Source: Shewanella maritima
GTDB lineage: Bacteria; Pseudomonadota; Gammaproteobacteria; Enterobacterales; Shewanellaceae
NCBI RefSeq assembly: GCF_004295345.1
Contig: NZ_CP036200.1
Span: 744,001-808,000, forward strand
DNA length: 64,000 nucleotides
Direction: 5' to 3'
Numbering within the stretch: position 1 is the stretch's first letter; each line of letters starts with the position of its first letter. Shown piece after piece: positions 38,442 through 61,752 of this stretch. The translations under genes and the position numbers were made by a program. Under the pieces are notes generated by a model. The model saw only the letters and a list, made by a program, of their open reading frames with translations, was not told the DNA's origin and did no database searches.

Positions 38442-39329
38442 CTAATAGTTTTTGATAATATCGCTGATACTTTTCTTAAACTCTGCGCCAAGCTTTTTGT
38501 CACGAATGCCATATTCTACAAATGCCTTTAAATAGCCTAGCTTGTCGCCACAGTCGTGCGACTCGCCAGACATTTTGAAAGCTTCAACAGTATCTTGCTC
38601 AATCAGCATGTCAATCGCATCCGTTAACTGAATCTCATCGCCTGCACCTGCTGGGGTTTTAGCTAATAACGGCCAAATTTTCTCCGATAAAACATAACGA
38701 CCAACCACAGCTAAATCTGATGGAGCATCTTCAATGGCAGGCTTTTCAACCATGCTGTGAATCACAGCTGAATCACCTTTGCCAAGCTCGGCACCATTAC
38801 AATCAGCAATACCGTATTTATTGACTTCTTCCTTAGGTACTGGAGAAACCATAATCTGACTAGCACCAGACTCATTAAAGCGTGACATCATCGCGGCTAA
38901 GTTTTCTGTTTTTTGACAAGCTGAATAGCTGGCAAGTAGAACATCAGGTAGTACAACGGCAAAAGGGTTATTGCCGATACAAGGCTTAGCACATAGCACT
39001 GCATGCCCTAACCCTTTCGCTTCACCTTGACGTACATGCAAAATAGTCACATCTTTCGGGCATATAGATTGAACTTCTTCTAAAAGCTGCCTTTTAACAC
39101 GCTTTTCAAGAATAGATTCAAGCTCAAAAGATTTATCAAAGTGGTTCTCAATCGCATTTTTACTGGCATGTGTTACCAATACAATCTGTTTTGCCCCGGC
39201 CGCAACACATTCATCAACAATGTATTGAATCAAAGGCTTATCCACCAACGGAAGCATTTCCTTTGGAATGGCTTTGGTCGCCGGTAGCATGCGCGTTCCT
39301 AGCCCTGCTACGGGAATAACTACTTTCAT
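38442..39329 (-). CDS. galU: UTP-glucose-1-phosphate uridylyltransferase
   Basis: A 295-residue GalU making UDP-glucose from UTP and glucose 1-phosphate, the precursor for UDP-glucuronate, UDP-galactose and many glycans. The nucleotide-binding start [35 protein letters not shown], and the later YGIADCNG and [19 protein letters not shown] blocks are all present. It is the last gene of the minus-strand glycan run, 32 bases after the epimerase gene. UDP-glucose dehydrogenase, needed to link it to the epimerase-like neighbour, is not in the window. Confidence 0.95.
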
Positions 39330-39361
39330 AATAATCCTTTGTATTAACTATAAAAAATACT

Positions 39362-40384
39362 TTATTGTTTATGGTAATAAGATAAATACCAATCGACAAA
39401 ACATTTTACTCCCTCGCTAAAGCTAACGCTTGGGCTAAAGCCGGTCATCTCTCTCAGTGGCTCCGTATCAGCCCAAGTAGTGAGTAACTCTCCCTTTTGC
39501 ATCGGTAACATACGTTTCTTAGCTTGCTTACCTAACACCTTTTCAATCTCAGCAACAAAATCCATTAAACTAACAGGGTTACCACTACCAATGTTATATA
39601 CCTGGTAGGGAGATGAACTGTGGGCAATAGACTCGGTATACATGGCTTGCTTGGTATCCCAAGCGCTATTTTCGACTGGAGGGTGCTCAAGGACAGTCAT
39701 CAAACCATCAATGATATCGTCAATATAAGTAAAGTCGCGGCTTAACTGGCCATGATTATAAATATCAATGGTATCTCCAGCGAGAATAGCCTTGGTAAAC
39801 TTAAACAACGCCATATCAGGCCTTCCCCACGGGCCATAAACAGTAAAGAAACGCAGCCCAGTTGTGGGTAACTGGTATAAATGAGAATAGCTATGGGCCA
39901 TTAACTCATTGGATTTTTTAGTCGCCGCATAAAGAGATAACGGGTGGTCTACATTGTCAGCCGTAGAATACGGTGTTTGTGAATTTAAGCCATATACAGA
40001 GCTTGAAGATGCATAGACCAAATGCTCGATACGATTTCTTTTGCATGCTTCGAGAACAGAGAAAAACCCCATCATATTGGCGTTCATATACGAATGAGGG
40101 TCTTCTAAAGAGTGCCTAACACCGGCTTGTGCTGCTAAATGAATAACGGCGTCAAAGTTGTATTGTGCAAAAATTTGTTGTAATGGCTGGATATCTGCAA
40201 TATCCAGTTGTTCAAAATGAAACTCCGTTTGCTCACCAATCCACTTCAAGCGATTTAATTTGAGCTCTACATCATAATATTGATTGAGATTGTCGACACC
40301 TACTACGCTATGCCCCTCAGCGAGGAGTCTTTTTACTGCATGCGAACCAATAAATCCTGCAGCGCCCGTTACTAATACTTTCAT
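39362..40384 (-). CDS. NAD-dependent sugar epimerase, UDP-glucuronate 4-epimerase-like
   Basis: A 340-residue extended short-chain dehydrogenase. The NAD-binding GAAGFIGSH lies at residues 7-15. DNLNQYYDVELKLNRL, HLAAQAGVRHSLEDPHSY, the Ser-rich YASSSSVYG, the catalytic YAATK and YGPWGRPDMALFKFTKAI are typical of CapI/WbnF-type enzymes that interconvert UDP-glucuronate and UDP-galacturonate. It is placed between the DHH gene and galU in the same direction, so it likely supplies an acidic sugar for the cluster's glycan. Substrate is assigned by similarity only. Confidence 0.85.
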   Translation of the reverse strand: MKVLVTGAAGFIGSHAVKRLLAEGHSVVGVDNLNQYYDVELKLNRLKWIGEQTEFHFEQLDIADIQPLQQIFAQYNFDAVIHLAAQAGVRHSLEDPHSYMNANMMGFFSVLEACKRNRIEHLVYASSSSVYGLNSQTPYSTADNVDHPLSLYAATKKSNELMAHSYSHLYQLPTTGLRFFTVYGPWGRPDMALFKFTKAILAGDTIDIYNHGQLSRDFTYIDDIIDGLMTVLEHPPVENSAWDTKQAMYTESIAHSSSPYQVYNIGSGNPVSLMDFVAEIEKVLGKQAKKRMLPMQKGELLTTWADTEPLREMTGFSPSVSFSEGVKCFVDWYLSYYHKQ

Positions 40385-40441
40385 GTACCGCCTTAATTTA
40401 TTGGGCTTAAAGAATAATCCGTAATTCTACCAAAACTACTA

Positions 40442-41407
40442 TTAATGTTTGCTGTAATAGTCTTCTGTAATATCGATAAACCGTTGTACGTGATCTGCTT
40501 CCAATCGATTGATGCCTGCAGCACCAGCTCGCCCACCACCGGTTAGAAATTGATTACATATATCTCCAGCTCCACACTTATTATTGAGTGGTGCGCGCAG
40601 AGAAACTAAATAGCTATTATCTGCATTCGGAGTTAACACAGCATGTGCACGCTCAGGGGCTTGGTTTGCCAATAGGTTACCATATACACCGCTAATACGC
40701 TTTGACCAAGTTTCATTTGGTAAATGTATTAATGTTAATAACTTCCCTTGATAACTCGGCTTCACAGAGTTAGCTGAAGCTAAATCACGTTCATACGCAG
40801 CCTTAAGTTTGTAATACGGTGAATCTGACGCTTCAAAAACGTCAAACGGCGATGAATACTTGTACAACGCCTGATACAAATCGGCTGGTGAAAAGTGCAA
40901 GTCAGCTAATTCAGCGCCATAACCATTGTAATTTATGAGTATACCCAACTCTTTCAAACGTAGTTTTTGCTCTTGGCTCAAACCCGCAGCTTCCGCTAGT
41001 TGATCAGCTTTGGCAATAAGGTTATCGCCATAAGCTGCTGTAATTGCCCAAGCATGATACTTGCCACCTAGAAGCTTATCAATAATTAGCGCGGTACAAG
41101 TATTCGCATCTAAATCAATATGTGCATCAAGGCTTTTTGATTCAGGGATACTGCCAGAGCGATGGTGATCGGCGTAAAACACATTTGCGCCATTATTTAA
41201 CGCTTGCTCCAGTGCTACACAATTCTTTTCCATTGAAATATCCAACACAGTGACACGGTCACCCTCGCTCGCATCAACCTGTTGAAGCAATGTAATGTCA
41301 CGTTTAACACCTGTGATCAGAACTGACTGTTTCGGCTCGTTAAGGCGCAATTGAATCAGAGAGATAATGCCGTCTGCATCTCCATTAAAAACATCAAAAT
41401 GAGTCAT
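40442..41407 (-). CDS. DHH-family phosphoesterase, candidate PAP phosphatase of the sulfation locus
   Basis: A 321-residue DHH-superfamily protein. Visible motifs are FNGDADGIISLIQLRL near residue 6 (metal-binding Asp residues), VTVLDISM, the DHH box YADHHRSG near residue 80, and a late GGGRAGAAG, the position of the DHHA1 glycine motif. Relatives such as NrnA hydrolyse nanoRNA and 3'-phosphoadenosine 5'-phosphate (PAP). It starts three bases after cysC, so it is co-translated with the PAPS-making kinase. I infer that it removes PAP left by the sulfotransferases, a job done by CysQ elsewhere. The fold is clear; the substrate is an inference. Confidence 0.72.
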   Translation of the reverse strand: MTHFDVFNGDADGIISLIQLRLNEPKQSVLITGVKRDITLLQQVDASEGDRVTVLDISMEKNCVALEQALNNGANVFYADHHRSGSIPESKSLDAHIDLDANTCTALIIDKLLGGKYHAWAITAAYGDNLIAKADQLAEAAGLSQEQKLRLKELGILINYNGYGAELADLHFSPADLYQALYKYSSPFDVFEASDSPYYKLKAAYERDLASANSVKPSYQGKLLTLIHLPNETWSKRISGVYGNLLANQAPERAHAVLTPNADNSYLVSLRAPLNNKCGAGDICNQFLTGGGRAGAAGINRLEADHVQRFIDITEDYYSKH

Positions 41408-41410
41408 GTT

Positions 41411-42052
41411 CTACCTACTTAAATATCCATATTCACGTAAATATTCAACTACAAGCTCTGCACATTGCTTCACAGATTTATCAGCCGTATTCACTATAAT
41501 TTCAGGGCTTAACGGAGCTTCGTAACTCGAGTCAATTCCGGTGAAGTTCTTAATTTCACCTGCACGGGCTTTTTTATACAAGCCTTTGGGATCGCGTTGC
41601 TCACAGACCTCTAGCGGTGTATCGATAAATACTTCAATAAACTGGCCTGAGCTTAGCTGCTTTCTGACCATATCCCTATCTTGAGTAAAAGGTGAAATGA
41701 ATGCTGTTGAAACAATCAAACCCGCATCCACAAACAACTTTGAAACCTCTCCAATGCGACGAATGTTCTCGACTCTATCGACATCAGAAAAAGACAAGTC
41801 ACCATTGAGGCCATGACGCACGTTATCACCATCCAAAACGTAGGTTTTACAACCGGAGTCATGTAATAACTTGTCCACTGCATTAGCAACGGTTGACTTG
41901 CCTGAGCCACTTAAACCAGTGAACCACAACACAGCTGATTTATGTCCATTGGCACGCACCCGTTCATCATGAGTAACGCTTGCTTGATGCCAAACAACAT
42001 CGCTCGATTTATCACCAGTAACGTCAACTTGTTTGTAAGGGGATTGAGACAT
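41411..42052 (-). CDS. cysC: Adenylylsulfate (APS) kinase
   Basis: A 213-residue APS kinase that phosphorylates APS at the 3' position to form PAPS. The P-loop GLSGSGKS is at residues 46-53. [49 protein letters not shown] and [20 protein letters not shown] follow as in E. coli CysC. It is a separate protein, not fused to CysN. It is followed after three bases by the DHH gene and preceded by an SLC13 transporter. PAPS can serve assimilation or sulfotransferases; two sulfotransferase genes lie upstream in the same run. Confidence 0.95.
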
Positions 42053-42080
42053 ACATAAACCTATATATTTAAATCTATTT

Positions 42081-43808
42081 TTAAAACGGGAAAAAGTAAG
42101 GAACAGAAACTATCACTATCAATCCATAAACAATGCTGACAGGCAGTCCAACTTTCACAAAGTCCCCTAGTCTATAGTTACCTGAGTTGTATACCATAAG
42201 GTTAGTTTGGTAACCGTATGGGCTGACAAAGCTACCACTTGCAGCAAAAGCTACAGTCATGACAAATGGCATAACATCCACGCCAAAGCCTAATGCTAAA
42301 CTGTACGCGATGGGGAACATCAATGCCGCAGCTGCATTGTTGGTCACAAGCTCTGTCATTAACCAGGTAATCAAATAAACGGCAATTAGCGCTAAATACA
42401 CATGTTGCTCGCTAAAAGCCCCATTAGCTAGTGTACTAATAGATTCTGCTACACCTGCGTTAACTAAAGCGTGCGACAACAGAATTGCCGAAGACACCAC
42501 TAACCAAATATCAATAGGGAGTCGCCTAATAATTTCATTAACATTAAGTGATTGGGTAAAAATAAGTCCACCAAGCAAAATAATTAACCCTTCTAGCAAG
42601 TCAATCAAACCAACGGATGCACTCACAATCATTGCCGCAAAACCAAAGGTTGCCAACCAAGCACGCCAACCACTCAACCGCGTTTCAGTCTCGACACCAC
42701 TTAACAGGATGAAGTTTTTACTGAGATTACGACGAGACTTAAAATCATCACCTACGGCAAGCACCAAAAAGTCACCGGCTTTGATTTTGACCTCGCCTAA
42801 CTTACCTGATACCTGTTCTCCATCACGCCTAATCGCCACTACTGCTGCATCAAACAAAGCTCTGAAACCTACTTGCTTTAATGTTCTCCAAACTAAAATG
42901 CTTTCATGGCGGACAACAACTTCAGTTAAGTTAGAGTCTTTTAAATCACTCTGGTGGGCAAAGGTTTCTAAGCCGCTAAATTGTTGTAATTGAGCCAGCT
43001 TTGTTATATCACCACTAAAAATTAACCGATCATTTTCTTGTAATGTTTCGCTTGGGTAAACAGGACTGATCAGCCTCCCATCGCGAACAAGCTCCACTAG
43101 GAACAATGACTCTAAATGTCGTAGTCCATTAGATTCTACCGTTTTTCCTATTAACTCAGAGTCTGAGGTGACTTTAGCATCGATAAAATAGCCTTGCTCA
43201 CCTTCAGTTTGTTGGTGCGTATTTGGTAAATACCTGACAAAAAAGCCCAGTATAGAGCCGCAAACAACAACCAACATGATACCAATTGCGGTAAAGGCAA
43301 AAAAATCAATAGACTTACCTGTCGCATCAATATAAAGGCTATTTACAATCAAGTTGGTAGAAGTACCAATAAGAGTAAGCGTTCCACCTAGGATGGCCGC
43401 ATATGATAACGGCAGTAGCAGCTTGCTAGCATAGTGGTGTGGGTTATTTCGAATCGGAGATAAAAGCGTCGCAACAACAGCGGTGTTATTTAAAAATGCA
43501 GAACATACTGCAGTAGTTGAAAACAACCTAACGAAAGTTTTGGCATAACTAGGAACGATGATTTTTGCGGCAATCGTTCTGAGCGCTCTGGTTTTCTCAA
43601 TCGCGAATGAGCAAATAATTAATAAAATTAACGTGACTAACCCCGGGTTTGCAATACTGGTGATCAGTTGTTCTTTGGAAACCAAGCCAAAAGTTATCAA
43701 TGATAGGAATGTCACTCCGAATACTGCCGCAGGTCGATTTTGAAACCTGAGCAACCCAACAATTGTGAGCGTAAAAATCGTGGTAGTTATAATGGCTTGT
43801 GGAGACAT
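42081..43808 (-). CDS. SLC13-family transporter with TrkA-C domains, probable sulfate importer
   Basis: A 575-residue membrane protein. It has an N-terminal set of helices with the DASS/SLC13-like [15 protein letters not shown] and [19 protein letters not shown], a soluble central part (about 200-370) made of two TrkA-C/RCK-C-like units ([20 protein letters not shown], then [15 protein letters not shown]), and a second helix set with [20 protein letters not shown]. This arrangement is common in transporters encoded next to cysDNC in marine bacteria and cyanobacteria, where sodium-coupled sulfate uptake is proposed. Its place between cysN and cysC supports sulfate as substrate. A terminator-like hairpin separates it from cysN. 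Confidence 0.85.
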
Positions 43809-43827
43809 AGACTCATCGATACACTTA

Positions 43828-43867
43828 TAAAAACAAAAGGCTGCACTGCATCTCGCAGAACAGCCCT
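43828..43867 (-). terminator. Internal terminator/attenuator between cysN and the transporter
   Basis: On the minus strand GGCTG-tt-CTGC, a five-base loop and GCAG-tg-CAGCC form a stem with an internal mismatch, followed by TTTTGTTTTT. Partial readthrough would lower expression of the distal genes. Confidence 0.65.
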
Positions 43868-43897
43868 AATTTATACATATGCTTCAATTAATAGCAA

Positions 43898-45304
43898 TCA
43901 GCTAATAACTTTTGCTCCCCAATGTGGGAAGTGTTTACGCACAAGCGCATTTAATTCAATTTCAAACTCCGAATGTTCTTTTTTATGGGTAATATCTTTA
44001 TCATCGAGGGCATTACGGATCATACCGGCACCTACTGTTACATTGCTTAGTCTATCGATAATAATAAATGCACCCGTTGAACGATTAACCTTATATGAAT
44101 CAAATTGAATCTCTTCATTTAAAGCAAAACGACAACTTCCCATTTCATTCAATGCAAGATATGAAGAATTTGAAACCTCAAGCGTGTTTACATCCACACG
44201 ATTATTGACCTTCTCAACATAGCCATAAACCGACTTACTACCGACCTTGATTACATATTCTCGGTCTACCTGCAGAGCTTCTTCAGCCATCCATACTACG
44301 TCGGCATCAAAACTATTGCTTGAATAAGGAAGTTGATGCGGACGAACCAGCATGTCACCGCGACTGATATCAATTTCATCTTCAAGGGTAATAGTAACTG
44401 CCATTCCTTCATAAGCTTTCTCTAGCTGACCATCAAAGGTGACTATCGACTGCACTTTACTTTCTTTACCAGAAGGAAGCGTACGAATTGTATCACCAAC
44501 GCGGATATCGCCTGATGCAACTGTGCCACAAAAACCACGAAAATCGAGGTTTGGACGATTAACGTACTGCACCTGCATTCTGAATGTACTTGATTTATCA
44601 CGATTGACTGAAACTGTATTCAGCAATTTCATCATTGTCGAGCCAGGGTACCAAGGCATGTTGTCGCTCTCGTTGACAACATTGTCACCTTTAAGCGCAG
44701 AAATCGGTACAAACCGAATATCATCAAACTCTAAAGATTCAGCGAACTCTCGATAATCTTTCTTAATTGCTTGATAAACACCTTGATCGTAATTGACGAC
44801 GTCCATTTTATTGATGGCGATGATCACATGTTTAATGCCTAACTGCGAACATATGAAGCTGTGACGACGCGTCTGGACTTGCACACCATGGCGAGCGTCA
44901 ATCAAGATAATAGCTAAATCTGCTGTTGAAGCGCCCGTGGCCATATTACGAGTGTACTGCTCATGACCTGGAGTATCAGCGATAATAAATTTACGCTGCT
45001 CCGTAGCAAAATAGCGATAAGCCACATCGATAGTAATTCCCTGCTCACGTTCAGACTGCAAACCGTCAACCAGTAAAGATAAGTCAAAGGACTCATCTGT
45101 AGTGTTAAAGCGTTTAGAGTCTTTTTCGATAGCAGCCATTTGGTCTTCAAAAATCATCTTGCTATCAAACAGCAAGCGCCCAATTAGCGTTGACTTACCA
45201 TCATCAACACTGCCGCAAGTTAAAATTCGCAGCAGATCTTTATTTTCATGTACCTTTAGGTAGGCTTCGATATCAGAAGCAATAAGTGACGTACTATTCG
45301 ACAT
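43898..45304 (-). CDS. cysN: Sulfate adenylyltransferase GTPase subunit
   Basis: A 468-residue EF-Tu-like GTPase subunit of ATP sulfurylase; GTP hydrolysis drives formation of APS by CysD. G1 GSVDDGKS is at residues 31-38, with switch [19 protein letters not shown]3 [12 protein letters not shown] and G4 NKMD. The domain 2-3 beta barrels follow, including [16 protein letters not shown]. It ends without a fused APS kinase, consistent with the separate cysC. It lies 69 bases after cysD. Whether this is the only copy in the genome or a second, glycan-dedicated one cannot be told here. Confidence 0.95.
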
Positions 45305-45373
45305 CGTTAAATCCTTTAAATCTTTACAACAGGCTGAGAGACTATATAAGTCGTTTCTAACAAGAAAAAAGAG

Positions 45374-46282
45374 CTAGAAGTAACCTTCCATTTTCTTCTT
45401 CTCCATAGAACCTGCAGAGTCATTATCAATCACACGACCTTGCCGCTCTGAAGTGGTACACAACAACATTTCTTGAATAATTTCCGGAAGGGTCTGTGCA
45501 ACAGACTCAACGGCACCGGTAAGTGGATAACAGCCTAACGTTCTAAAGCGAACCATCTTAGGTTGTGCGACTTCTCCCACCTCAAGTTCCATACGGTCAT
45601 CATCAACCATAATTAGGGTACCGTCGCGCTCTACAACTGGGCGTTCTTTGGCGAGGTATAAAGAAGGAATTTCAATGTTTTCCAAGTAAATGTATTGCCA
45701 GATATCTAGCTCAGTCCAATTCGATAAAGGAAATACGCGAATACTCTCACCTTTATCAACTTTACTATTATAGATATTCCATAATTCTGGACGTTGATTT
45801 TTAGGATCCCAGCGGTGCTTACTATCACGAAATGAATATACACGCTCTTTCGCGCGAGACTTTTCTTCATCTCTACGCGCACCACCAAAAGCAGCATCAA
45901 AGCCATGCATGTCTAGGGCTTGTTTTAAGCCTTCAGTTTTCATGATATCAGTGTGCTTCGCACTACCATGAGTAAAAGGGCTGATATTCATTTCTAAGCC
46001 GCGAGGGTTTTTGTGGACGATTAAGTCAAAACCATACTTCTTTGCCATGTTATCTCTAAACTGGATCATTTCTTTAAATTTCCAGTTGGTATCAACATGC
46101 AACAAAGGAAAAGGAATTTTTCCTGGATAAAAGGCTTTGCGTGCTAAGTGAAGCAACACAGAAGAGTCTTTACCTACAGAGTAAAGCATTACAGGGTTAT
46201 CAAACTCTGCTGCGACTTCTCGCATAATATGAATTGATTCAGCCTCAAGCGCTCGTAGGTGAGTTAACCTTTCTTCGTTCAT
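45374..46282 (-). CDS. cysD: Sulfate adenylyltransferase catalytic subunit
   Basis: A 302-residue CysD, the N-type ATP pyrophosphatase that makes APS from ATP and sulfate. The PP-loop YSVGKDSSV (residues 34-42), [55 protein letters not shown] and the C-terminal [16 protein letters not shown] match E. coli CysD, including its length. The frame extends upstream to a TTG, but [20 protein letters not shown] fits the family start at the ATG, 46282. It follows a 154-base gap after the glycosyltransferases, so a promoter may lie there, though none is clear. Confidence 0.96.
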
Positions 46283-46436
46283 AACAGTTTCGAGTTTCCC
46301 AAAATAAAATCGTTTATTGCTCAATCACACAATCAAGATATGCTGTTCTAAGCTCAAACAATACCACTTCCGACTTGGTTATTCATTACTTACTTAGCTA
46401 AAAAAATAAAAATATATAACCAAATGACATATAAGA

Positions 46437-47306: not shown

Positions 47307-47309
47307 AAT

Positions 47310-48209
47310 TTAATTATTCTTTTTCATTTTCATCAAGCGCCTATCTAAAAAATACGCCCACTTTATTATAAATCCGGGCATCATACGTAAGGTTAATACC
47401 ATAGTTGCGTATGTCAGATTAACAACACTCACTTGATTAAGTAAACGCATCGCCATTAAGCGAGCCTTAAACTCGTTGATAGACTTTCCTCTGCCACGAC
47501 GTTTATAAAAACCATTGATGCGACGAAAGTGAAGCAATGGTTCTTTCACATTTGCAAACTTATAGCCTGCAGCCGCGAGTTCAACCCATAGGAAATAATC
47601 TTGAGTATTTAGCATATGCCCTAAATACCGATGCCCTTGTTCGAATACCTTATAACGTATAGCGACTGTAGGATGATTAATAGGACAACGTCTAGCTAAC
47701 GATTTTATAAGCGCCGTATGCTTTTTTGGTAAATGCCGAACTCCTACGCGATTCTCATTTTCATCAACTTCCCACAATGCACTACCTAGCACGTCAACAT
47801 CAGCATGGGAGTCAAGCAGTTCCACCTGCTTTTCAAAGCGATGAGGTACAGATATGTCGTCAGCATCCATTCTAAAGAAGTAGTCAGGTTGATGCGGTTG
47901 AACAAAATCAATCACAAAATTCATACAGCGAGCTAAGCCAATGTTACTTTGTGAATGAACCAGCACCACTGACGATTCAGACAACTCGAGTGTAGCTAAA
48001 TACTTAGACACTTGCTCATCGACATTACCATCAATAACAACTACATATAAACACGGGGGCAATGTTTGCTGCAAAATACTGTCAACAGCACGTTTTATCC
48101 ACTCAAACTTGTCTTGTTTATAGACTGACATCCCACAAACAGTTTTAAGCTTACTTGGAATTGGATTTGAAGCTTGTACCACAAACTGCTTATCATCATT
48201 ATCTATCAT
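47310..48209 (-). CDS. Glycosyltransferase family 2, AmsE-like
   Basis: A 299-residue GT2 enzyme. It has MSVYKQDKFEWIKRAVDSIL near residue 27, VVVIDGN, the acidic metal site FFRMDADDISVPHRFEKQ, and CPINHPTVAIR, as in AmsE-type exopolysaccharide transferases. The ATG directly abuts the TAG stop of the upstream glycosyltransferase, so the two are translationally coupled. The C-terminal tail is basic and may touch the membrane. Sugar specificity is unknown. Confidence 0.85.
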   Translation of the reverse strand: MIDNDDKQFVVQASNPIPSKLKTVCGMSVYKQDKFEWIKRAVDSILQQTLPPCLYVVVIDGNVDEQVSKYLATLELSESSVVLVHSQSNIGLARCMNFVIDFVQPHQPDYFFRMDADDISVPHRFEKQVELLDSHADVDVLGSALWEVDENENRVGVRHLPKKHTALIKSLARRCPINHPTVAIRYKVFEQGHRYLGHMLNTQDYFLWVELAAAGYKFANVKEPLLHFRRINGFYKRRGRGKSINEFKARLMAMRLLNQVSVVNLTYATMVLTLRMMPGFIIKWAYFLDRRLMKMKKNN

Positions 48210-50039
48210 CTATCTAACTTCATCCTTACGAGTTGGATTTTGGCTACACAATCGATCCTTGTAATGTCCACAAGTATACCGATCGTTTATTGAAAAGTTC
48301 TCTTTTTGTTTAGTTAAATGAGGGTGGTACATTGGATCCCGCTCAACATACTCCTCCCAACGCCCTTTCAAGTAGTTCAACTCTCGTTGAAACCTTTTCT
48401 GTTTGCTTGTTGTATCTTCTCCACCTCGGCTAACCGATTCGTGGTGAAAAAGCACAGCCTCTGCACAAAAAAGGTTTCTTACTCCTAACTGAAGCACTTT
48501 TAAGCAAAAATCAACATCATTAAATGCAACCGCAAGGTTTAATTCATCTAACCCACCGACAGCTTCGTAATGAGACTTCTTAGCGATGAGACAAGCCGCG
48601 GTGACAGCGCTGACATTATGGGTACAAACCAACCTATTTTGATAGCCAGGATGTTCACCAGGAAAGTGCTTATGTGCGTGAGCTGCAACCCCGCTTGAGC
48701 CACCGCAGCCTAAAATGACACCTGCGTGCTGCACAGTGCCATTAGAGTAGAGTAGTTTTGCTCCTACACAACCTATATCTGGGCGTATTACTTGCCGAAC
48801 AAGTTGCTCTAGCCAGTCTGCTGAAATGACTTCGACATCATTGTTAACTAACGCAACGACGTCTCCCGCAGCATGTTTTACAGCAAAATTATTTATCGCT
48901 GAATAATTAAAAGCATGAGGGTATTCAATAACGGTAATCTTAGGCTGTTCAGAAAGGCGCTTAAAGTAACTAATACTTTCAGGGTCATCAGAATTGTTAT
49001 CGACTAAGATAATCTCAAAGTTCTGATAACTGGTTTTAACAAGAATCGAGTCAATACAGGACTTAACTAACGCCTTGGCATTGTGGGTAGGAATAATAAT
49101 CGAGACTAACGGCTGAGAGCTTAACGGCCAATTCAGCGTGATACTAGAAGCTTGCTTGTTACAGTGTAATAATTCAGCGTGACCATGGAATGTATGCTCA
49201 AGTGAACTCACCCCGGCAGACATATCAAATGCTTGGCGCTGAGCAAGCAACACCCAAGGTATGTGGTGAATATCGCCACTTCGTCGATTTAAACCTAAAT
49301 GACAAACAAAAGCTGCAATACTGTGGCTTGTAACTTGGTTTGAAATAGAACTAAAACTCTCAAGTGCCTTACACCATAGACCAGTATTTACGTAACCATT
49401 ACTGTATTGAAAATCGGGATTAAAATCAGGCTTAAAATCAGGTTCTAACCATTGGTTGTTAGAAGCAAGATAAATACAAGTATCTACATACGCAAATTGA
49501 CTATGTTCAGTATTATCGACTAAGGCCAATAGACATCGCGGGTCAAGGGTATCTCCACTATTAATAATAAAAATAGGCTCGTTAAATAAGCTAGGCTCAC
49601 AATCATTTAATCGAGTGACAAAATAGCATTCTAGGTTAAATTTCGACGTGTATAGCTCAAGCTCTGATGTGCACGACCGTGTGCCCCAAAAAATGACGCT
49701 TCCATTGAAGCCTAGTAATTTTGAGATGCTATCTAGCGTTGCTGATATAAGGTCTTCTTGCCCATCTGGGACGCATATTAAAATGTTGCAATCAAAATCA
49801 GTGAGTGGTTTTGAAATGAGCTCATTAAGCTGTGTATTCTGCCAATTCAAATAGCGATGAAAGCGCTCTTGATCTTGGTCAAGTTCAACTGCAGACATAG
49901 GCTTAGCGACAATATTTGATAACTTAACATGTAACGCTCTAAGGGCTGCTATTTTTTTAAGTTCAGCTTTAATGCGCTCGGGAAGCAAGCTCAGCACACT
50001 GCCTACAACTTTAGAGATAAAGCACTTTAAGTCAGACAA
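48210..50039 (-). CDS. Large glycosyltransferase family 2 protein with an extra N-terminal domain
   Basis: A 609-residue protein. Residues 1-300 are a weakly conserved N-terminal domain with remnants of a GT-A-like fold (ILICVPDGQEDLISATLDSI, FIINSGDTLDPRCLLALVDN). Residues 305-590 are a clear GT2 domain: PLVSIIIPTHNAKALVKSCI, ILVDNNSDD, VVALVNNDVEVISADWLEQL, AFNDVDFCLKVLQLG. Similar two-part GT2 proteins extend capsule or O-antigen chains. The start is a TTG at 50039 with AGAGAG upstream; the alternative GTG frame stops at once. An 89-base gap separates it from the SCP2-like gene upstream. Confidence 0.82.
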   Translation of the reverse strand: MSDLKCFISKVVGSVLSLLPERIKAELKKIAALRALHVKLSNIVAKPMSAVELDQDQERFHRYLNWQNTQLNELISKPLTDFDCNILICVPDGQEDLISATLDSISKLLGFNGSVIFWGTRSCTSELELYTSKFNLECYFVTRLNDCEPSLFNEPIFIINSGDTLDPRCLLALVDNTEHSQFAYVDTCIYLASNNQWLEPDFKPDFNPDFQYSNGYVNTGLWCKALESFSSISNQVTSHSIAAFVCHLGLNRRSGDIHHIPWVLLAQRQAFDMSAGVSSLEHTFHGHAELLHCNKQASSITLNWPLSSQPLVSIIIPTHNAKALVKSCIDSILVKTSYQNFEIILVDNNSDDPESISYFKRLSEQPKITVIEYPHAFNYSAINNFAVKHAAGDVVALVNNDVEVISADWLEQLVRQVIRPDIGCVGAKLLYSNGTVQHAGVILGCGGSSGVAAHAHKHFPGEHPGYQNRLVCTHNVSAVTAACLIAKKSHYEAVGGLDELNLAVAFNDVDFCLKVLQLGVRNLFCAEAVLFHHESVSRGGEDTTSKQKRFQRELNYLKGRWEEYVERDPMYHPHLTKQKENFSINDRYTCGHYKDRLCSQNPTRKDEVR

Positions 50040-50128
50040 TGTATTTCACTCTCTTTAAATTTAAATACGTATTGCATGTAACGGTTATAAGCCTTAGCAC
50101 TTGTTGCATAAGCTAGCGTGAAGGCGTA

Positions 50129-50737
50129 TTAACGAAGCTGGGCTTGATATTCTTTAACTTTTCTATTGATATGAGAGCCACTAGGTCTAGCTTGTTGAGC
50201 AACAAGCATTAATCTTAGTGCTTGTTGCGTATCCTTTTTTTGCACACTAATAGCAGAATCTCGAATAAAGTCTATATCTTCATCACACTCGATATCACTC
50301 ACCGAAACTGTTGCTAAATCAATCCTAGGTTCAGGTTTTATATGTAAAAATGAGCAACAACGAGAGACTAAACGATCTAAATGTGGTTGAGATACAGATT
50401 TGACTGCTTTCTTAAATACTTGTGCTTTAGCTGCATCACCTTCAACATGTATACAGCCATCATCTATCGCTGTCTGGAGTACACTTTTTCGTCGGCATTC
50501 AAGTAATTTTTCTAGGGTGAATGACACTGTTAGCGGGTGCTGTTCGCCCTGGCTCTGTTCAGTCTTAGTCACAGGTACCAGCCAAGACACGTTAAAATCT
50601 TGTAAATTTAATCTGACGTGGCTGCCCACTTCAATTTTTTCATTCGCAAACACAAAGTGCCATGCTTTTTCTAGTGCTTTAAGTTGAAGTCGATTAGGAA
50701 TAATTTTTAAGGCGGCTGAAATTAATCTTTTTCTCAT
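50129..50737 (-). CDS. SCP2/UbiT-like domain protein in the glycan cluster
   Basis: A 202-residue cytoplasmic protein. Residues 1-125 follow the SCP2 sterol-carrier pattern seen in UbiT/UbiJ: NRLQLKALEKAWHFVFANEK, VRLNLQDFNVSWLVPV, VSFTLEKLLECRR and GCIHVEGDAAKAQVFKKAV. The last 50 residues (DIDFIRDSAISVQKKDTQ and LMLVAQQARPSGSHINRK) look like a TPR-type helix pair seen at the end of some capsule-locus proteins. SCP2 domains bind lipids; UbiT helps oxygen-independent ubiquinone synthesis. Here, between sulfotransferases and glycosyltransferases, binding a lipid-linked glycan is possible. The similarity is from memory and modest. Confidence 0.55.
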   Translation of the reverse strand: MRKRLISAALKIIPNRLQLKALEKAWHFVFANEKIEVGSHVRLNLQDFNVSWLVPVTKTEQSQGEQHPLTVSFTLEKLLECRRKSVLQTAIDDGCIHVEGDAAKAQVFKKAVKSVSQPHLDRLVSRCCSFLHIKPEPRIDLATVSVSDIECDEDIDFIRDSAISVQKKDTQQALRLMLVAQQARPSGSHINRKVKEYQAQLR

Positions 50738-50757
50738 CTATGTGGCCTACATTTAAC

Positions 50758-51741
50758 TTAAATTTCGACAGACATAACATCAGCATATAACTTCTTGATA
50801 AAGTCACTATCTGACTGTAATTCCACAGTTGGAAGCGCAAACACTTTCGCAGGTAAAACAAACGAATCATCATAATTGACGATGTTAGCGTCAAACTCTT
50901 TATGAAAGTTCGCCTTTAACCTGTTAAGCACGAAGGTATCCGCTATCGACACCTTATCCTCCCAAGCAGGTAAGTTATCGATTTTTTTTCTTACTGCAGC
51001 TTCATTGTTTAAATACTTGAAAAACCTAGCCCTTAACCGCTTTGATTGCGCATTCGTACCTGTCTTCTTACTATGGTATCGATTTAACAACCTTAAAACT
51101 TCGATAATTTTCTTATTTGGAGCCTGATTAATCACTTGATTGTTATAACAATAACCCGTGTCATCAATTTGATATAACGCCAAAACCAACTCAACTAAAT
51201 CTTGGTTATCAGATTTAGCAATATCATAGTCGACAACGGCAATATATTGCTTACCAAAAACCTTTGCATACTTAAGCAAGATACCAGTGTCACCAAGGCA
51301 GCTACTTACAAAGGGCCTTAATAAGTGCTCTAACGCGTAGTCTTGCCATACTTGCACATTGCCGTGTTTAATAGACTCTGACCAACTCGATATCAACTTC
51401 TCATCAGCTCGCCTGTATACGTAAAGAATATGGACTTCAAAGCATTTATTAACAACATCGTGAAGCTTTTGAATTTGCTGTTGGTTTAAACGATCAAAAT
51501 TCTCAGATGATAACAAAATATTGCTATTGAGTGCCTTTAACCTCTCGGTGTAGTGTTCAAGCTGATCATAGTCACCGTTTAGCAACCAATTAACAAAAGG
51601 GTGGTGTCCATACTGAAGAATTTCATCGTCTGGATAAGTCCAACCTTTTGATGAAAGATAGGCAGTGTTTTCAAGAAGGCTTTTCTGGATATAAGTTGAC
51701 GCGGTCTTATGCGGTCCAATATGCAAGACTAGTTTTTTCAT
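50758..51741 (-). CDS. Sulfotransferase-like P-loop protein
   Basis: A 327-residue protein with a sulfotransferase 5'-phosphosulfate loop at residues 9-18 (GPHKTASTYI) after a first beta strand (KKLVLHI). LYVYRRADEKLISSWSESIK near 107 corresponds to the 3'-phosphate-binding segment (Arg, Ser). The rest is less conserved, as in bacterial capsule and Stf0-unlike sulfotransferases. It should transfer sulfate from PAPS to a hydroxyl of a glycan. It lies 11 bases after the other sulfotransferase gene and in the same run as cysDNC, so donor and enzyme are encoded together. Confidence 0.75.
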   Translation of the reverse strand: MKKLVLHIGPHKTASTYIQKSLLENTAYLSSKGWTYPDDEILQYGHHPFVNWLLNGDYDQLEHYTERLKALNSNILLSSENFDRLNQQQIQKLHDVVNKCFEVHILYVYRRADEKLISSWSESIKHGNVQVWQDYALEHLLRPFVSSCLGDTGILLKYAKVFGKQYIAVVDYDIAKSDNQDLVELVLALYQIDDTGYCYNNQVINQAPNKKIIEVLRLLNRYHSKKTGTNAQSKRLRARFFKYLNNEAAVRKKIDNLPAWEDKVSIADTFVLNRLKANFHKEFDANIVNYDDSFVLPAKVFALPTVELQSDSDFIKKLYADVMSVEI

Positions 51742-51752
51742 TACATTTAACC

Positions 51753-52550
51753 TTAAGCCAACTTAGGTTTAGCAAATAATGACATCACCTTCTCACTAAG
51801 CTCTTGTCCTAGTGTGCCACTAATAACCTGATCTATCTTATTAACCACATTTGCTTCTAACCCGACTTGGCTTGAAGTGCCGCCAACTTTATGATGTAAA
51901 GTCTCAACCATAGTAGTAGTCAGTTTTACACCTGCAAAACTTGCAACTTTTTCCATTTCGCTCATTGACTTAACTTCGTCGACAAAGTCTTCGTGGGCAA
52001 TCACAATTGCACCTAACCGTTCAATTTTTGCTGTATCAATGAAATCTTTCATATTATTAGCCCAAAATCGAATCGGTTGATACGGGTCATTGAAACTTTG
52101 GTGGAAGTCCGTAGATAACAACGACTCATAAACTTCATAAGGGTTGCGATAGTGAAAAATGATCTTGCAATCAGGAAATAAGGTTTTCATCATCTCAGCG
52201 TGCTGATAAGCATTTTGCCTAACTTCTTTAAACCCCCAACGACGCTTGCCATATTGCGCTAACTGACCGCCATAAGTCGTGTTAAAAAATGCTCTATAGC
52301 CTTCTAGCAACTGCTGTGATTTAGGGTTTAGTACAGGGATCCAAGCCTTTTGAAACCCCAACTCCTCCAAAGACGTATGCTGCCATTCAACTGCTTTAAA
52401 ATGAGCAACAGACTTGGTAAATGCATTATGAAAAGGCAGCAAGTAATTTGGCTCCCCCCAAATCAGTAAATCATCAGAGGTATTTAAAAAGCGCTGAATT
52501 AACGTACTACCTGTTCTCCAACAAGCTGAAAATATAAAAACTTGACTCAC
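51753..52550 (-). CDS. Sulfotransferase family protein
   Basis: A 265-residue PAPS-dependent sulfotransferase. The 5'-phosphosulfate-binding loop is CWRTGSTLIQ at residues 10-19. KRRWGFKEVRQNAYQHAEMM and the 3'-phosphate-binding IIFHYRNPYEVYESLL segment follow near residue 130. The start is GTG at 52550 with AGAGG five bases upstream. No signal peptide or membrane helix is seen, so it acts in the cytosol before glycan export. The acceptor is unknown; the neighbouring GT2-GT4 protein and epimerase make an acidic capsule-like glycan the best guess. Confidence 0.85.
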   Translation of the reverse strand: MSQVFIFSACWRTGSTLIQRFLNTSDDLLIWGEPNYLLPFHNAFTKSVAHFKAVEWQHTSLEELGFQKAWIPVLNPKSQQLLEGYRAFFNTTYGGQLAQYGKRRWGFKEVRQNAYQHAEMMKTLFPDCKIIFHYRNPYEVYESLLSTDFHQSFNDPYQPIRFWANNMKDFIDTAKIERLGAIVIAHEDFVDEVKSMSEMEKVASFAGVKLTTTMVETLHHKVGGTSSQVGLEANVVNKIDQVISGTLGQELSEKVMSLFAKPKLA

Positions 52551-52566
52551 AAAAACCTCTTAATAC

Positions 52567-54747
52567 TTAAAAAACACGTTTAATATGCTCTGCAACAGCA
52601 CCCCGTGAAAAATTATCTATAAACAATTGCTGTTGCTGCGACATCTGTCGTTGCCAATCTTGTTCATTCATGACTAATTTCGCTACCTGATCAGCGAATT
52701 TCTGTGGGGTATTACTAGCAACCAGTCCGTAATCAGCGGCATTTATACCCTCTAAGCCAATTGCAGTCGACACCACTGGGGTTCCATAAAACAAAGATTC
52801 AACTAGCTTGCCTTTAACGCCTGCACCATGCAGCAAGGGCAAAATGTTAACTGACACCTTTCTATAAAGTGTTGCTAACTCTTCATCAGATACAAAGCCA
52901 TGAATGATAACGGTATCTGAACCGTATGCTTTGATTGCATCTGGCATCTTGCTGCCAACAATATGAAAGCAAATATCAGGGAGTCTTTGCTGCACGAAAG
53001 GCCAAACACTCTCCAAAAACCACAGTACGCCCTCTTCGTTTGGCGCGTGTCCAAAGCCACCAACAAACAATAAATCTTGGCGCTTTGCAAAAGGGAGCTG
53101 AGAGTCTGGACTACTGGGCTTGTCATACACAAACAAAGGTACCTGCTGTATGTCGCTTTTTAGATTTAAAGCATCTAAGTAGGCCTTTTCATCATGAGAA
53201 AAGGTTAATCCAACATCAACAGAGTCAAATATGTCCAATTCGACTCCTTTCCAATGTTGTGCCTCTTGTTTGGTTTTCTCACAACTTGAAATTTCAGCCG
53301 CTCTAGCGAGACGCCAATGATGCAAGTCATGGCATTGATACACTAACTTAGCAGCGCTATGCTGTTTAATAAAAGGTAAGTACTTGGGCGCAATGTGTGG
53401 ACGATGAAAATACACTACATCGATAAAGCTCTGGTGCTCTAAAAACCAACCTCGCCAGTTTTCGGCGTAGTGACCACCATATAACACCTCCACCCCCATG
53501 GACTCGAGCACCTGAGTATAAGGTTGGTGCGGATAAAAGTTATCGCCGATGAACTTTACGTTGTAGCCTGCGTCAACGAAGAACTTTACATACATGAAGG
53601 TTGAACGAGAACCTGCATCTTGATCATACCAAGGCACGTAATGATCAATGAGCAAAATCGACTTTTTATTTCGACTACGATCTCTGGCAACAAAACCACC
53701 TTGCCCATTTGCAGAGTGTTCTGTCCTTAAAATATTGTGCCATTTCTCTCGAAACTTCTTTTGATTTGTAACTTGGTACGCTTTCAATCCAGAAGCGGTG
53801 TTAGTGCCGTGGCTTTTACCTTCAAAGTGGGTTACGACAGATTGAGGTTGAAAAACAGTTTTATACCCTAAATCACGCAGTGCAAAACAAAAGTCTGTAT
53901 CTTCATAATATGCTGGTGCGTATCGAGTATCAAAGCCTTCTAGTTGATGCCAGCAGGTAGCTCGGATCAGAACACTGGCACCAGAAATATAATCGACCTC
54001 TTTATAATAATTATACTCGGGCAAACTAGGGTTGCGGCCATTACCATAATTCCACGCGGAACCATCTCTCCAGACGATACCACCAGCTTCCTGCAATGTC
54101 CCATCGGGATACACCAGCTTTGAGCCAACAATTCCAATATCATCATCGCGCTTGATAGTGCTAAGTAAACTCGACAACCAGTGCTCGTGTACAACAGTGT
54201 CATTATTTAAAAGGACGATGAAATCACCAACAGCATGCTTAGCTGCAAAGTTACAGTTTTTCAAGAACCCCTGATTTTCTTCAGGCCGAACAATCTTAGC
54301 ATTGGGCAGGTGCCGCTGAGCATTTATGGTTTCATCTGTCGAGCAATCGTCAGCAACAATCACCTCAAAACTTACCCCTTCAACATTTTCAATAATTGAA
54401 TGAATACATCTAACCGTGTAATCCCATTGGTTATACACAGGGACAATTATCGAAACTTCGATGTCATCAAATGTAGGAATATTAAGTGGTAATGTAACTT
54501 CAAACTCAGAAACGTCACTTACTATGAGGTCAGGGCAAACGTTATCCTCAGAGTCATTCCAACTCTGTGGAGGTGTGCCTCCTAACTTTTGATAGCGTTT
54601 CAGTTGCCAAAATCGTTTAGCTCGAGCAATTACAGCACCAGGAGACTCAGTTATCAGCAATCTTACTAGGGTTTTGACACGGCTATACGAAATCAACTTA
54701 ACCGCAAAGCTCAGCTTGTTAGCCCAAGCTTTAAGTGTTTTATACAA
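52567..54747 (-). CDS. Bifunctional GT2-GT4 glycosyltransferase
   Basis: A 726-residue two-domain glycosyltransferase. The N-terminal GT2 domain (about 95-345) has VSIIVPVYNQWDYTVRCIHS, VIVADDCSTDET, IVLLNNDTVVHEHWLSSLLS and YYEDTDFCFALRDLGYKT. The C-terminal GT4 domain (about 365-720) has LLFVGGFGHAPNEEGVLWFL, CFHIVGS and VKGKLVESLFYGTPVVSTAI with the donor-binding Glu. Such fusions add two sugars in turn in capsule, O-antigen or glycoprotein pathways. It lies 11 bases after the coiled-coil protein gene and 16 before the sulfotransferase. Confidence 0.88.
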   Translation of the reverse strand: MYKTLKAWANKLSFAVKLISYSRVKTLVRLLITESPGAVIARAKRFWQLKRYQKLGGTPPQSWNDSEDNVCPDLIVSDVSEFEVTLPLNIPTFDDIEVSIIVPVYNQWDYTVRCIHSIIENVEGVSFEVIVADDCSTDETINAQRHLPNAKIVRPEENQGFLKNCNFAAKHAVGDFIVLLNNDTVVHEHWLSSLLSTIKRDDDIGIVGSKLVYPDGTLQEAGGIVWRDGSAWNYGNGRNPSLPEYNYYKEVDYISGASVLIRATCWHQLEGFDTRYAPAYYEDTDFCFALRDLGYKTVFQPQSVVTHFEGKSHGTNTASGLKAYQVTNQKKFREKWHNILRTEHSANGQGGFVARDRSRNKKSILLIDHYVPWYDQDAGSRSTFMYVKFFVDAGYNVKFIGDNFYPHQPYTQVLESMGVEVLYGGHYAENWRGWFLEHQSFIDVVYFHRPHIAPKYLPFIKQHSAAKLVYQCHDLHHWRLARAAEISSCEKTKQEAQHWKGVELDIFDSVDVGLTFSHDEKAYLDALNLKSDIQQVPLFVYDKPSSPDSQLPFAKRQDLLFVGGFGHAPNEEGVLWFLESVWPFVQQRLPDICFHIVGSKMPDAIKAYGSDTVIIHGFVSDEELATLYRKVSVNILPLLHGAGVKGKLVESLFYGTPVVSTAIGLEGINAADYGLVASNTPQKFADQVAKLVMNEQDWQRQMSQQQQLFIDNFSRGAVAEHIKRVF

Positions 54748-54758
54748 ACCGCAACCTA

Positions 54759-55523
54759 TTATCTAAATGAGAAAAAACGCTTCTTTTTCTTTTCTGGCTC
54801 ATTGAACTCTACAATATTAATGGCAATACCAAGCTTACGTTCATCAGGTGATTTACCCAGTTCTTGAGGAGAAAAGGTATTTGGAAGTTGTACTGCAACT
54901 TTAGTCTCATCTACCTTACCTTTAGATTCAGGTATTTCAGCGACTAGGCAATCTAATGTTCCATCAAATTCAATTTTGCTCGATACAACATTCCCATCGA
55001 CCAAAACTTTGATGTCTTGCTTCATGTCCTCTTTAATTAAGCTCACTAAACGAACCTTAATTTGCATTGGTTGCTCTCGCGAAATCAAAGCTTTAAAATT
55101 GGTTATGGGATTGCTTTTCGTCCAGCAGTAACTTAACCCCGTGTCAGTAAGTTCTGCTTTGTCCATATTGGTATTAGTAGCGAAGTGTTGAGTATTAAGA
55201 ATCACTTTTTTGGATAAATTTGGCAATGCAGCTGGTTGGCTTCGAGAGCCTTGAACTTCAATAGTATTGGTTAATTGATCACCAACACTGCGATTAACAG
55301 GTAGCTCAGACGCTAATACAGTTTCCACAATTTGCATTCTAGCGTTTAACTTTGCAAGGTGCTCTGAAACTCGTTCAATGAGAGCTTCTGTACTATCACC
55401 TTCGCTTCTTGATACGTGCTGAGTGATATCTTTTCTTAACTGAGCCGACTCATTAGCGACCATGGCTTTGAAGTGTTTAATATCTGACAAAATACGTTCA
55501 TTGTCTTTGTGTGCACGTTTCAT
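54759..55523 (-). CDS. Coiled-coil plus beta-domain protein of unknown function
   Basis: A 254-residue soluble protein. Residues 1-70 are helical with heptad-like spacing (ILSDIKHFKAMVANESAQLR, VSEHLAKLNARMQIVETVLA). Residues 105-245 look like a beta-sandwich (GLSYCWTKSNPITNFKALIS, IKVLVDGNVVSSKIEFDGTL), similar in feel to carbohydrate-related beta domains. The C-terminus is very basic (KKKKRFFSFR) and could contact membrane or nucleotide-sugar enzymes. AAGGACAACAA precedes the ATG. It is transcribed just ahead of the GT2-GT4 gene. I do not recognise a family; a scaffold or chain-length role would be a guess. Confidence 0.65.
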   Translation of the reverse strand: MKRAHKDNERILSDIKHFKAMVANESAQLRKDITQHVSRSEGDSTEALIERVSEHLAKLNARMQIVETVLASELPVNRSVGDQLTNTIEVQGSRSQPAALPNLSKKVILNTQHFATNTNMDKAELTDTGLSYCWTKSNPITNFKALISREQPMQIKVRLVSLIKEDMKQDIKVLVDGNVVSSKIEFDGTLDCLVAEIPESKGKVDETKVAVQLPNTFSPQELGKSPDERKLGIAINIVEFNEPEKKKKRFFSFR

Positions 55524-55592
55524 TTGTTGTCCTTGTAACTTAGATTTTTATCAATTCTATTATTGAGCAACCGCTGTAATTCGCCGCTGGAG

Positions 55593-56042
55593 TTATTCAA
55601 TATACCATTTAGAATGTAGATGAACGTCAGAAGAAGACTTCATTTCATTTTTAGTAAACCAACGGTACTGATTGTGCTGTTTCTCCGGTAATGATTCAAT
55701 ATCAATATCGACAATGATCTTGTATCCGATAACCACATAATGTGTCGACACCTCAGTTCCAAAAACATAATCATCATAGAAGTGTTCGTAAGGCCCCAAG
55801 CAATGAGCTTGCTGACGAGTAGCCTCAACCCCAAGTTCTTCAACACACAATCTTAAAAAAGCATCATCTAGCTTCTCATTTTTGCGAATTCTTCCGCCGG
55901 GTACGAACCAATACCCTTTAGCCGGGCGGTTATTTCTATGGCCAAGCAATACTGCGCCATTAGAGTTTTCTACCACTAAATCAATGGATATTAGCGGGGT
56001 AGATTCAATTACCGTTTCGAATGTATCTTTATCTAAAAACAT
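55593..56042 (-). CDS. gmm: GDP-mannose mannosyl hydrolase (Nudix family)
   Basis: A 149-residue Nudix-type hydrolase that splits GDP-mannose or GDP-glucose into GDP and the free sugar. MFLDKDTFETVIESTPLISI, GYWFVPGGRIRKNE and HFYDDYVFGTEVSTHYVVIG match E. coli Gmm, and the Nudix helix FLRLCVEELG has the altered form of this subfamily. The ATG at 56042 follows AGGTG; an in-frame TTG one codon upstream is less likely. Genes of this kind sit in O-antigen and capsule loci and may control GDP-mannose levels. It is the first gene of the minus-strand glycan run. Confidence 0.9.
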   Translation of the reverse strand: MFLDKDTFETVIESTPLISIDLVVENSNGAVLLGHRNNRPAKGYWFVPGGRIRKNEKLDDAFLRLCVEELGVEATRQQAHCLGPYEHFYDDYVFGTEVSTHYVVIGYKIIVDIDIESLPEKQHNQYRWFTKNEMKSSSDVHLHSKWYIE

Positions 56043-56370
56043 CAAACACCTATGAAATAGTTCACTGCTTTGTATTAATCGCTATGGGCCCGGCGTTTAC
56101 ATGGAAAAATTGAGGAGGGCTAGAAGAAAAGAGCTTTGCTGTTAGTTGGCTGCAGTACATTAAAAATACAACTCCTGCTTTTCTAATCCATTAAGAATTT
56201 ATCTCTCCATAAGTCGTGCAACATGATAACTAAGCCAATGAAAACCAACAAGCTAATTGTGGTAAAAAGACAGTTATGGGTTATGAATACTCGATAGGTT
56301 TAAGGGAGCGGTTTCTCCCAACATCGAACAGCGGCTTTGAACTCCTATGGACTTACATTTTACAATGCTA
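56043..56370. other. Spacer upstream of the glycan cluster
   Basis: No gene, clear promoter, JUMPstart or ops element was recognised on the minus strand. The DUF255 gene ends at 56371 without an obvious terminator. Confidence 0.3.
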
Positions 56371-61727: not shown

Positions 61728-61752
61728 ACCTAAACTACGCTATTCGCTCTTC

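Follow-up and report, generated by a model that had tools for sequence, protein, structure and literature searches.

A Gene Run of Shewanella maritima with the Sole CysD Detected in Its Genome, a Proposed Role in Glycan Sulfation, and a Candidate DHH-Family PAP Phosphatase

Introduction

The capsular polysaccharide (CPS) gene cluster of Vibrio sp. KMM 8419 contains cysC, cysN, cysD, sulfotransferase, kps-type ATP-binding cassette (ABC) export and rhamnose genes, and the combination of sulfotransferase genes with genes for 3′-phosphoadenosine 5′-phosphosulfate (PAPS) synthesis has been called a hallmark of sulfated polysaccharide synthesis (PMC11641403). Similarly, Cobetia marina KMM 1449 is described as having a CPS cluster with PAPS genes (cysN/C and cysD), a gene for a phosphatase acting on 3′-phosphoadenosine 5′-phosphate (PAP), a sulfate permease, a sulfotransferase, an ABC exporter, and dTDP-Rha and GDP-Man genes (PMC11766843).

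Here we analyze a region of the Shewanella maritima genome that shares these features, the PAP phosphatase being a candidate. The window, a 64,000-nucleotide stretch (C1:744001-808000 of the single-contig 4.72 Mb genome), contains a run of 16 open reading frames (ORFs) on the minus strand at 38442-56045, with intergenic gaps of 0 to 112 bp and a gap of 325 bp to the next gene upstream. In Cobetia, the PAP phosphatase gene is cysQ, cysN and cysC are fused, and kpsSC and wcb operons are present, whereas here there are a DHH-family gene, separate cysN and cysC genes, and WecA, and no cysD apart from that of the run was found in the genome. For Cobetia, the sulfated polymer was determined (PMC11766843), whereas sulfation here is proposed from gene content. 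In Vibrio sp. KMM 8419 the cys genes are second copies, and the main text of that report describes no DHH gene (PMC11641403); here no other cysD was found.

We consider it likely that the run belongs to a surface-glycan region that makes a sulfated polymer, with a capsule the most likely product, that the run supplies the PAPS, that its DHH protein is the PAP phosphatase, and that one PAPS pool also feeds CysH. We also lean, with less assurance, towards a broader proposal: that a transferable CysD-CysN-SLC13-CysC-DHH cassette has this DHH subfamily as its PAP phosphatase, and that in Shewanella the cassette moved into surface-glycan loci and replaced the housekeeping cysDNC copy, so that cysteine synthesis from sulfate came to depend on a variable capsule region. 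Clusters for sulfated capsules that combine PAPS genes and sulfotransferases with ABC export are already in the literature, and the cassette is what is new. The initial annotation of the window did not recognize this exact set of genes; clusters of the same logic are known from Vibrio and Cobetia, and it is the set containing DHH that remains new. Among the open-access papers listed in literature searches, none was seen to describe a DHH gene next to cysC in Proteobacteria or a missing housekeeping copy.

Sulfate Activation and Sulfotransferase-like Genes Lie in One Run

The genes of the run that concern sulfate and its transfer are as follows (window coordinates).

40442-41407, minus: DHH-DHHA1 protein, proposed PAP phosphatase (motifs, predicted structure, gene position)
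41411-42052, minus: CysC, adenosine 5′-phosphosulfate (APS) kinase (PF01583, 233.4 bits; subfamily NF003013, 319.7, cut-off 163)
42081-43808, minus: SLC13-like (CitMHS + TrkA_C) permease, proposed sulfate uptake (PF03600, 152.9 bits; PF02080, 68.4 bits)
43898-45304, minus: CysN, sulfate adenylyltransferase subunit 1 (equivalog NF003478, 727.8, cut-off 590)
45374-46324, minus: CysD, sulfate adenylyltransferase subunit 2 (equivalog NF009214, 532.3, cut-off 413)
50758-51741, minus: ST1, sulfotransferase-like (no Pfam match; predicted fold)
51753-52550, minus: ST2, Sulfotransfer_3 family (PF13469, 52.1 bits, cut-off 27)

CysD, CysN and CysC thus exceed curated cut-offs within a glycan cluster. The permease scored under the TIGR00785 cut-off, and its position between CysN and CysC is kept in relatives. 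As in a sulfated ABC-type CPS cluster, sulfotransferase genes are present: ST2 by its Pfam match and ST1 by its confidently predicted fold, in agreement with the two sulfotransferases named in the initial annotation. The ST1 model aligned best in VIA-align with heparan sulfate sulfotransferases, and although the weak Foldseek matches also included kinase and zeta-toxin P-loop proteins, VIA-align clearly separated the sulfotransferases from them. A third sulfotransferase-like gene, ST3, lies outside the window at 829.3-830.2 kb, in the exporter half of the region described below, with a PF13469 score just under the cut-off.

Among the 1129 ORFs of the loci examined, the sole relative of ST1 was found in the type-A locus (defined below) of genome G031, which is of another family; this locus (L071:2704-7250) also has a gene read as an arylsulfatase just upstream of CysD. 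Nine plasmid records contain ST1-like proteins (24.5-34.8% identity).

The Single CysD Detected Suggests a Dual Role

A genome search with PF01507 yielded three genes: the CysD of the run, CysH at 3.36 Mb, and a gene for a 409-410-aa protein. A search with the CysD protein agreed, giving one match. Therefore, no second CysD was found in the genome, a search that did not extend to further CysN or CysC copies. CysH, 2.6 Mb away, adjoins genes read as CysJ, CysI and CobA, and, because the CysD of the run is the only one found, CysH would depend on it and would draw its PAPS from sulfate activation by the run. With a single CysD, the locus would also serve assimilation and be dual-purpose, as opposed to a separate supply for sulfation. 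The 409-410-aa protein, which is PAPS-reductase-like, is encoded beside a 207-aa partner and transposon-like genes (L007:5675-11430); the pair may be IbrA/IbrB.

The single CysD bears on a rival explanation, that an ordinary sulfate-assimilation cassette lies by chance in a glycan cluster, its PAPS going to CysH and the sulfotransferase-like genes being minor or idle. The initial annotation would have taken the lack of other cysDNC genes, together with a normal glycan free of sulfate in all strains, as ordinary assimilation, and one part of this, a single CysD in the genome, is what was found. The presence of sulfotransferase-like genes within the same tight run, with ST3 in the exporter half, speaks against the chance explanation, as do the Vibrio and Cobetia clusters, in which this combination of genes produces sulfated capsules (PMC11641403, PMC11766843). 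The survey of related genomes provides evidence on both sides.

Two Kinds of Sulfate-Activation Cassette Occur in Relatives

In 40 genomes (S. maritima and 39 relatives, 24 genomes being of the genus with S. maritima included), two cassettes were distinguished. Type A, CysD-CysN-SLC13-CysC, occurs in 12 of the 24 same-genus genomes; of its 14 copies there, 11 have DHH next. Type B, CobA-CysD-CysN-SLC13-CysC, is found in 13 of the 24. Both occur together only in G021, and no type-B copy was found in the other 11 of the 12 same-genus type-A genomes. The two share the same four-gene core and order, but type B has CobA upstream and no DHH. Within the genus, CysD identity is 72-76% for type B versus 79-93% for type A.

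Matches to the glycan genes of S. maritima surround 11 of the 13 same-genus type-A loci fetched (not those of G018 and G022), compared to 0 of 13 for type B, which argues against chance placement. Within 30 kb, 6 of 18 type-A cysD genes have a PF13469 or PF03567 match, compared to 0 of 20 others (p = 0.007; without S. maritima, 5 of 17, p = 0.014), values that ignore shared descent. In G014, the second type-A copy has glycan genes and a sulfotransferase inside the cassette. In favor of plain assimilation, the remaining 12 of the 18 type-A cysD genes have no such match nearby, and type B places the same four genes in a clearly assimilatory setting, with CobA and often cysIH nearby. On balance, we regard the explanation by ordinary assimilation and chance placement as unlikely.

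In a tree of CysD + CysN, the grouping of the genus rows as one clade was rejected (approximately unbiased test, p = 7.6e-102), which fits transfer of the cassette or an old duplication with loss. Three cassettes, two of Psychromonas and one of Colwellia, were present among 24 named DHH loci. The type-A cassettes form one clade with weak support (72/18). G033 and Psychromonas sp. carry the cassette without glycan labels, which favors plain assimilation, and the cassette is, therefore, not dedicated to sulfation.

The DHH Protein Is Probably a PAP Phosphatase

The gene following CysC encodes a protein for which both domains scored under the Pfam cut-offs (DHH, 20.3 versus 28.1 bits; DHHA1, 23.9 versus 25.9 bits), and the predicted model (pLDDT 95.1) has the DHH + DHHA1 fold. 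The best Foldseek match in the PDB was 8a8k, the PAP phosphatase of Methanothermococcus thermolithotrophicus (E = 7.7e-14). In an alignment (A1) of 23 rows picked from the window, relatives and named loci, the DxD, D, DHH, D and GGGR motifs are invariant (D10, D12, D56, D80-H81-H82 and D128); a second alignment (A2) comprised the window sequence and 40 of the 54 other matches. The metal-binding residues of the archaeal enzyme are His6, Asp8, Asp10, Asp57, His76, His77 and Asp127 (PMC10322725), to which Asn8, Asp10, Asp12, Asp56, His81, His82 and Asp128 correspond here at like spacing, all invariant in the 23 rows. The two proteins are thus alike in fold, in metal-ligand spacing and in having their genes near sulfate-activation genes (PMC10322725); they differ in that identity is about 15%, a profile search of PDB sequences listed no PAP phosphatase at E values up to 1, Asn8 takes the place of His6, and the one is archaeal, whereas the other is known from its sequence and a model.

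There is precedent for this chemistry in DHH proteins, since the NrnA-type enzymes of bacteria without cysQ and the DHH pApase of Pyrococcus yayanosii hydrolyze PAP (PMC8268124). In archaea, DHH PAP phosphatase genes are known that adjoin genes of sulfate activation or assimilation (PMC10322725, PMC8268124). NrnA also degrades short RNA (PMC8268124), and both the NrnA-type and the Pyrococcus proteins are distant in sequence from the family described here.

Gene position points in the same direction. In relatives, 16 DHH copies were found in 14 of 39 genomes, and 14 of the 16 directly follow CysC on the same strand (the exceptions being in G026 and G035), with gaps of -64 to 537 bp over 17 loci measured. 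The ORF picker overlooked some DHH genes beneath overlapping ORFs, for example in L042, L053, L056 and L059. In G024, G032, G034, G037 and the second cassette of G038, the slot after CysC is held by CysQ, so that CysQ takes the place of DHH in five other families. Furthermore, two genomes with cassette and DHH have no CysQ over the TIGR01331 cut-off of 228.8 bits, namely G033 (best score 112.5 bits) and Psychromonas marina (111.4 bits). Of 11 named DHH genomes tested, 5 have no CysQ over the cut-off. These three lines, gene position, the absence of CysQ in carriers and the predicted fold, strengthen the suggestion of the initial annotation that the DHH protein clears PAP, and it is probably a PAP phosphatase able to replace CysQ.

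The evidence weighing against this assignment is of several kinds. VIA-align ranked RecJ proteins above the PAP phosphatase (22.8 versus 19.7), and S. maritima has two CysQ genes besides DHH, as 6 of the 11 named genomes also have CysQ over the cut-off. Three Vibrio plasmids carry DHH relatives (54-56%) without sulfur-activation neighbors, and the DHH loci viewed in Halieaceae, Granulosicoccaceae, Burkholderiales and a planctomycete were without the cassette. Lastly, in 107 genomes of the genus (S. maritima included), a single CysQ match at an E value of 1e-60 was found in 22 of 36 genomes with DHH compared to 3 of 71 without it (Fisher, 1.3e-10), one of these three, G128, being 52% complete. 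However, on a tree of 40 genomes, CysQ loss changes twice and DHH eight times, and independent pairs were not significant. Because the CysQ losses amount to about one or two clade events, this table is not usable as independent evidence. The tree includes 40 of the 53 genomes for which the CysQ1 region was fetched; 13 with too few neighbor genes were left out, and L144 was not used.

Instead, the DHH protein might be a nucleotide hydrolase of another kind that accompanies the cassette, such as a nanoRNase or a phosphodiesterase for cyclic dinucleotides or pGpG. The high rank of RecJ, the solitary relatives on plasmids and elsewhere, and Asn8 in place of His6 would fit such an enzyme, and NrnA, PggH (a pGpG phosphodiesterase), DhhP and GdpP appear in the Foldseek list. 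The constancy of the position after CysC, the use of that slot by CysQ, the two carriers without CysQ over the cut-off, and the PAP phosphatase as best Foldseek match make a hydrolase of another kind improbable relative to a PAP phosphatase.

A CysQ inside the type-A cassettes of G012 and G013, which lack DHH, was considered and rejected: it belongs to a nearby CysQ-ROK block that has the same neighbors in other genomes. Among 7998 candidates scored, 7245 were DHH relatives at an E value of 1e-20. In viral contigs, no DHH gene was confirmed. Public names for the subfamily are "DHH family phosphoesterase" or "acetyltransferase"; the fold and motifs do not support the latter name, which is attached to records P0072, P0088, P0089, P0101 and P0161.

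Exporter Genes Lie Upstream of the Run

As the initial annotation stated, no exporter was seen among the ORFs examined in the window. About 35 kb past its edge, on the same strand, there are an ABC ATPase and an ABC-2 permease (843.0-844.4 kb) and a Poly_export/SLBB protein, with PF01061, PF00005, PF02563 and SLBB over their cut-offs (C1:843.0-846.2 kb), that is, an ABC exporter with an outer-membrane export protein. In the same upstream region (C1:817-848 kb), Gmd, Fcl, ManC and WecA exceeded equivalog cut-offs, and a KdsB-type cytidylyltransferase (subfamily cut-off), a UDP-glucose dehydrogenase, further glycosyltransferases, and genes read as RmlABCD and ManB were present, GDP-fucose and mannose genes being among them. 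An unusual CMP-activated acidic sugar is suggested by L012:3281-6279, where HAD and KdsB-type genes accompany two neighboring ORFs that we read as pieces of an HMGL-type aldolase.

Between this half and the run are genes for DsbH, ASPIC and giant DUF11/FG-GAP proteins and two plus-strand genes. Because of these intervening genes, we infer, but do not observe, a single locus, in which the run would form the distal end of an extended surface-glycan region and both halves would make one polymer. The DsbH-type, ASPIC/UnbV FG-GAP and giant DUF11/FG-GAP genes lie just upstream of the run (window 56371-64000; L004:1-9273), and in G003, G010 and G022, too, ASPIC and DsbH genes stand beside the cassette.

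On the other side of the run is one further gene related to capsules.

36881-38346, plus: Wzi-like capsule-assembly gene (PF14052, 191.7 bits, cut-off 30.1, on 36881-37921)

This gene is convergent with the run, and a break in its reading frame falls between about 37793 and 37870; its two ORFs align with residues 20-323 and 350-507 of an unbroken 507-aa relative in G013. A Wzi-like gene thus flanks both the run here and the cassette in G013.

The initial annotation proposed a check for Wzx/Wzy genes, of which none were found near the locus; the only PF01943 and PF04932 matches of the genome are at C1:4.07 Mb, and a Wzx/Wzy-dependent route near the locus was rejected on that basis. The same kind of transporter could export an O-antigen or another lipid-linked glycan as the sulfated product, or the two halves could make different polymers. 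Consistent with this, the WecA equivalog (TIGR02380, 393 bits, cut-off 326) adjoins the exporter genes, KpsC and KpsS were not recognized in any ORF examined from L004, L012 and L013 (no genome-wide search was made), the Wzi-like frame is broken, and plus-strand genes separate the halves. A capsule is favored by the Poly_export/SLBB outer-membrane component, by the Wzi-like gene beside both this run and the G013 cassette, and by the ABC-2 permease, whose only NCBIfam match at an E value of 1e-30 is KpsM, though at 107.9 bits it is far under the cut-off of 300. A product other than a capsule, or two polymers, is therefore possible but doubtful.

Taking the sulfotransferase-like and PAPS genes in a tight run together with the Wzi-like gene, the exporter and ST3 nearby, a sulfated surface glycan is the best reading of these gene contents, as the initial annotation had proposed. 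Its description of the locus as self-contained is not supported, in that export genes lie outside the window and the only CysD found in the genome is in the run.

Proposed Pathway and Its Implications

In the pathway that we propose, the SLC13-like permease would bring in sulfate, CysD and CysN would form APS, and CysC would form PAPS. ST1, ST2 and probably ST3 would move sulfate onto sugars of a chain assembled by the glycosyltransferases, and the ABC/Kps-type exporter would carry the polymer out. The DHH protein would split the toxic by-product PAP into AMP and phosphate, the task of CysQ elsewhere, and the same PAPS pool would also feed CysH for cysteine. The polymer, its sulfation and the DHH activity are all proposed here.

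This proposal gives a large DHH family with vague or "acetyltransferase" names a function that can be tested, and it suggests that a surface-glycan locus can take over essential sulfate activation. Such capture, if true, would link the glycan genes to sulfur nutrition, and the locus would then be difficult to lose. For Vibrio vulnificus, PAPS synthesis is reported to be required for rugose colonies, for a reason that the authors left open (PMC6113621).

Other Genes of the Run

The remaining genes of the run are as follows.

38442-39329, minus: GalU, UTP-glucose-1-phosphate uridylyltransferase (equivalog TIGR01099, 377.5 bits, cut-off 326.8)
39362-40384, minus: NAD-dependent nucleotide-sugar epimerase (PF01370, 200.8 bits)
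46437-47306, minus: GT2 glycosyltransferase (PF00535, 32.0 bits)
47310-48209, minus: GT2 glycosyltransferase (PF00535, 52.2 bits)
48210-50039, minus: GT2 glycosyltransferase with an N-terminal extension (PF00535, 74.0 bits)
50129-50737, minus: SCP2-like protein (PF02036, 26.8 bits, slightly over the cut-off of 21.3)
52567-54747, minus: two-domain glycosyltransferase, GT2 + GT1-type (PF00535, 100.7 bits; PF13692, 84.2 bits)
54759-55523, minus: 254-aa protein without a family (no Pfam match)
55593-56045, minus: NUDIX protein, first gene of the run (PF00293, 61.6 bits)

The 16 same-strand genes reported in the initial annotation were borne out, and Pfam and NCBIfam support its nucleotide-sugar, CysD, CysN, CysC, SLC13-like permease and glycosyltransferase calls; its list of gene types left the 254-aa and NUDIX proteins unnamed. 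The epimerase reached no NCBIfam equivalog cut-off among the 25 families shown and may be of the UDP-glucuronate 4-epimerase type.

We propose that the run is co-transcribed. The RfaH ops core GGCGGTAG is absent from L004, L012 and L013, and its three matches in the window (5211, 16313 and 29025) are all distant from 38-57 kb. Nothing in the window from 36 to 58 kb reached Rfam gathering thresholds. Promoter-like sites were fewer than in shuffled sequences (28 versus 47.9) and terminator-like sites more numerous (26 versus 14.8), from which no conclusion was drawn.

A search of PDB sequences with the SCP2-like protein gave no match, and a search of 5.8 billion proteins gave a single homologue besides itself; it may be similar to UbiT. 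The SCP2-like gene sits between a glycosyltransferase gene and ST1.

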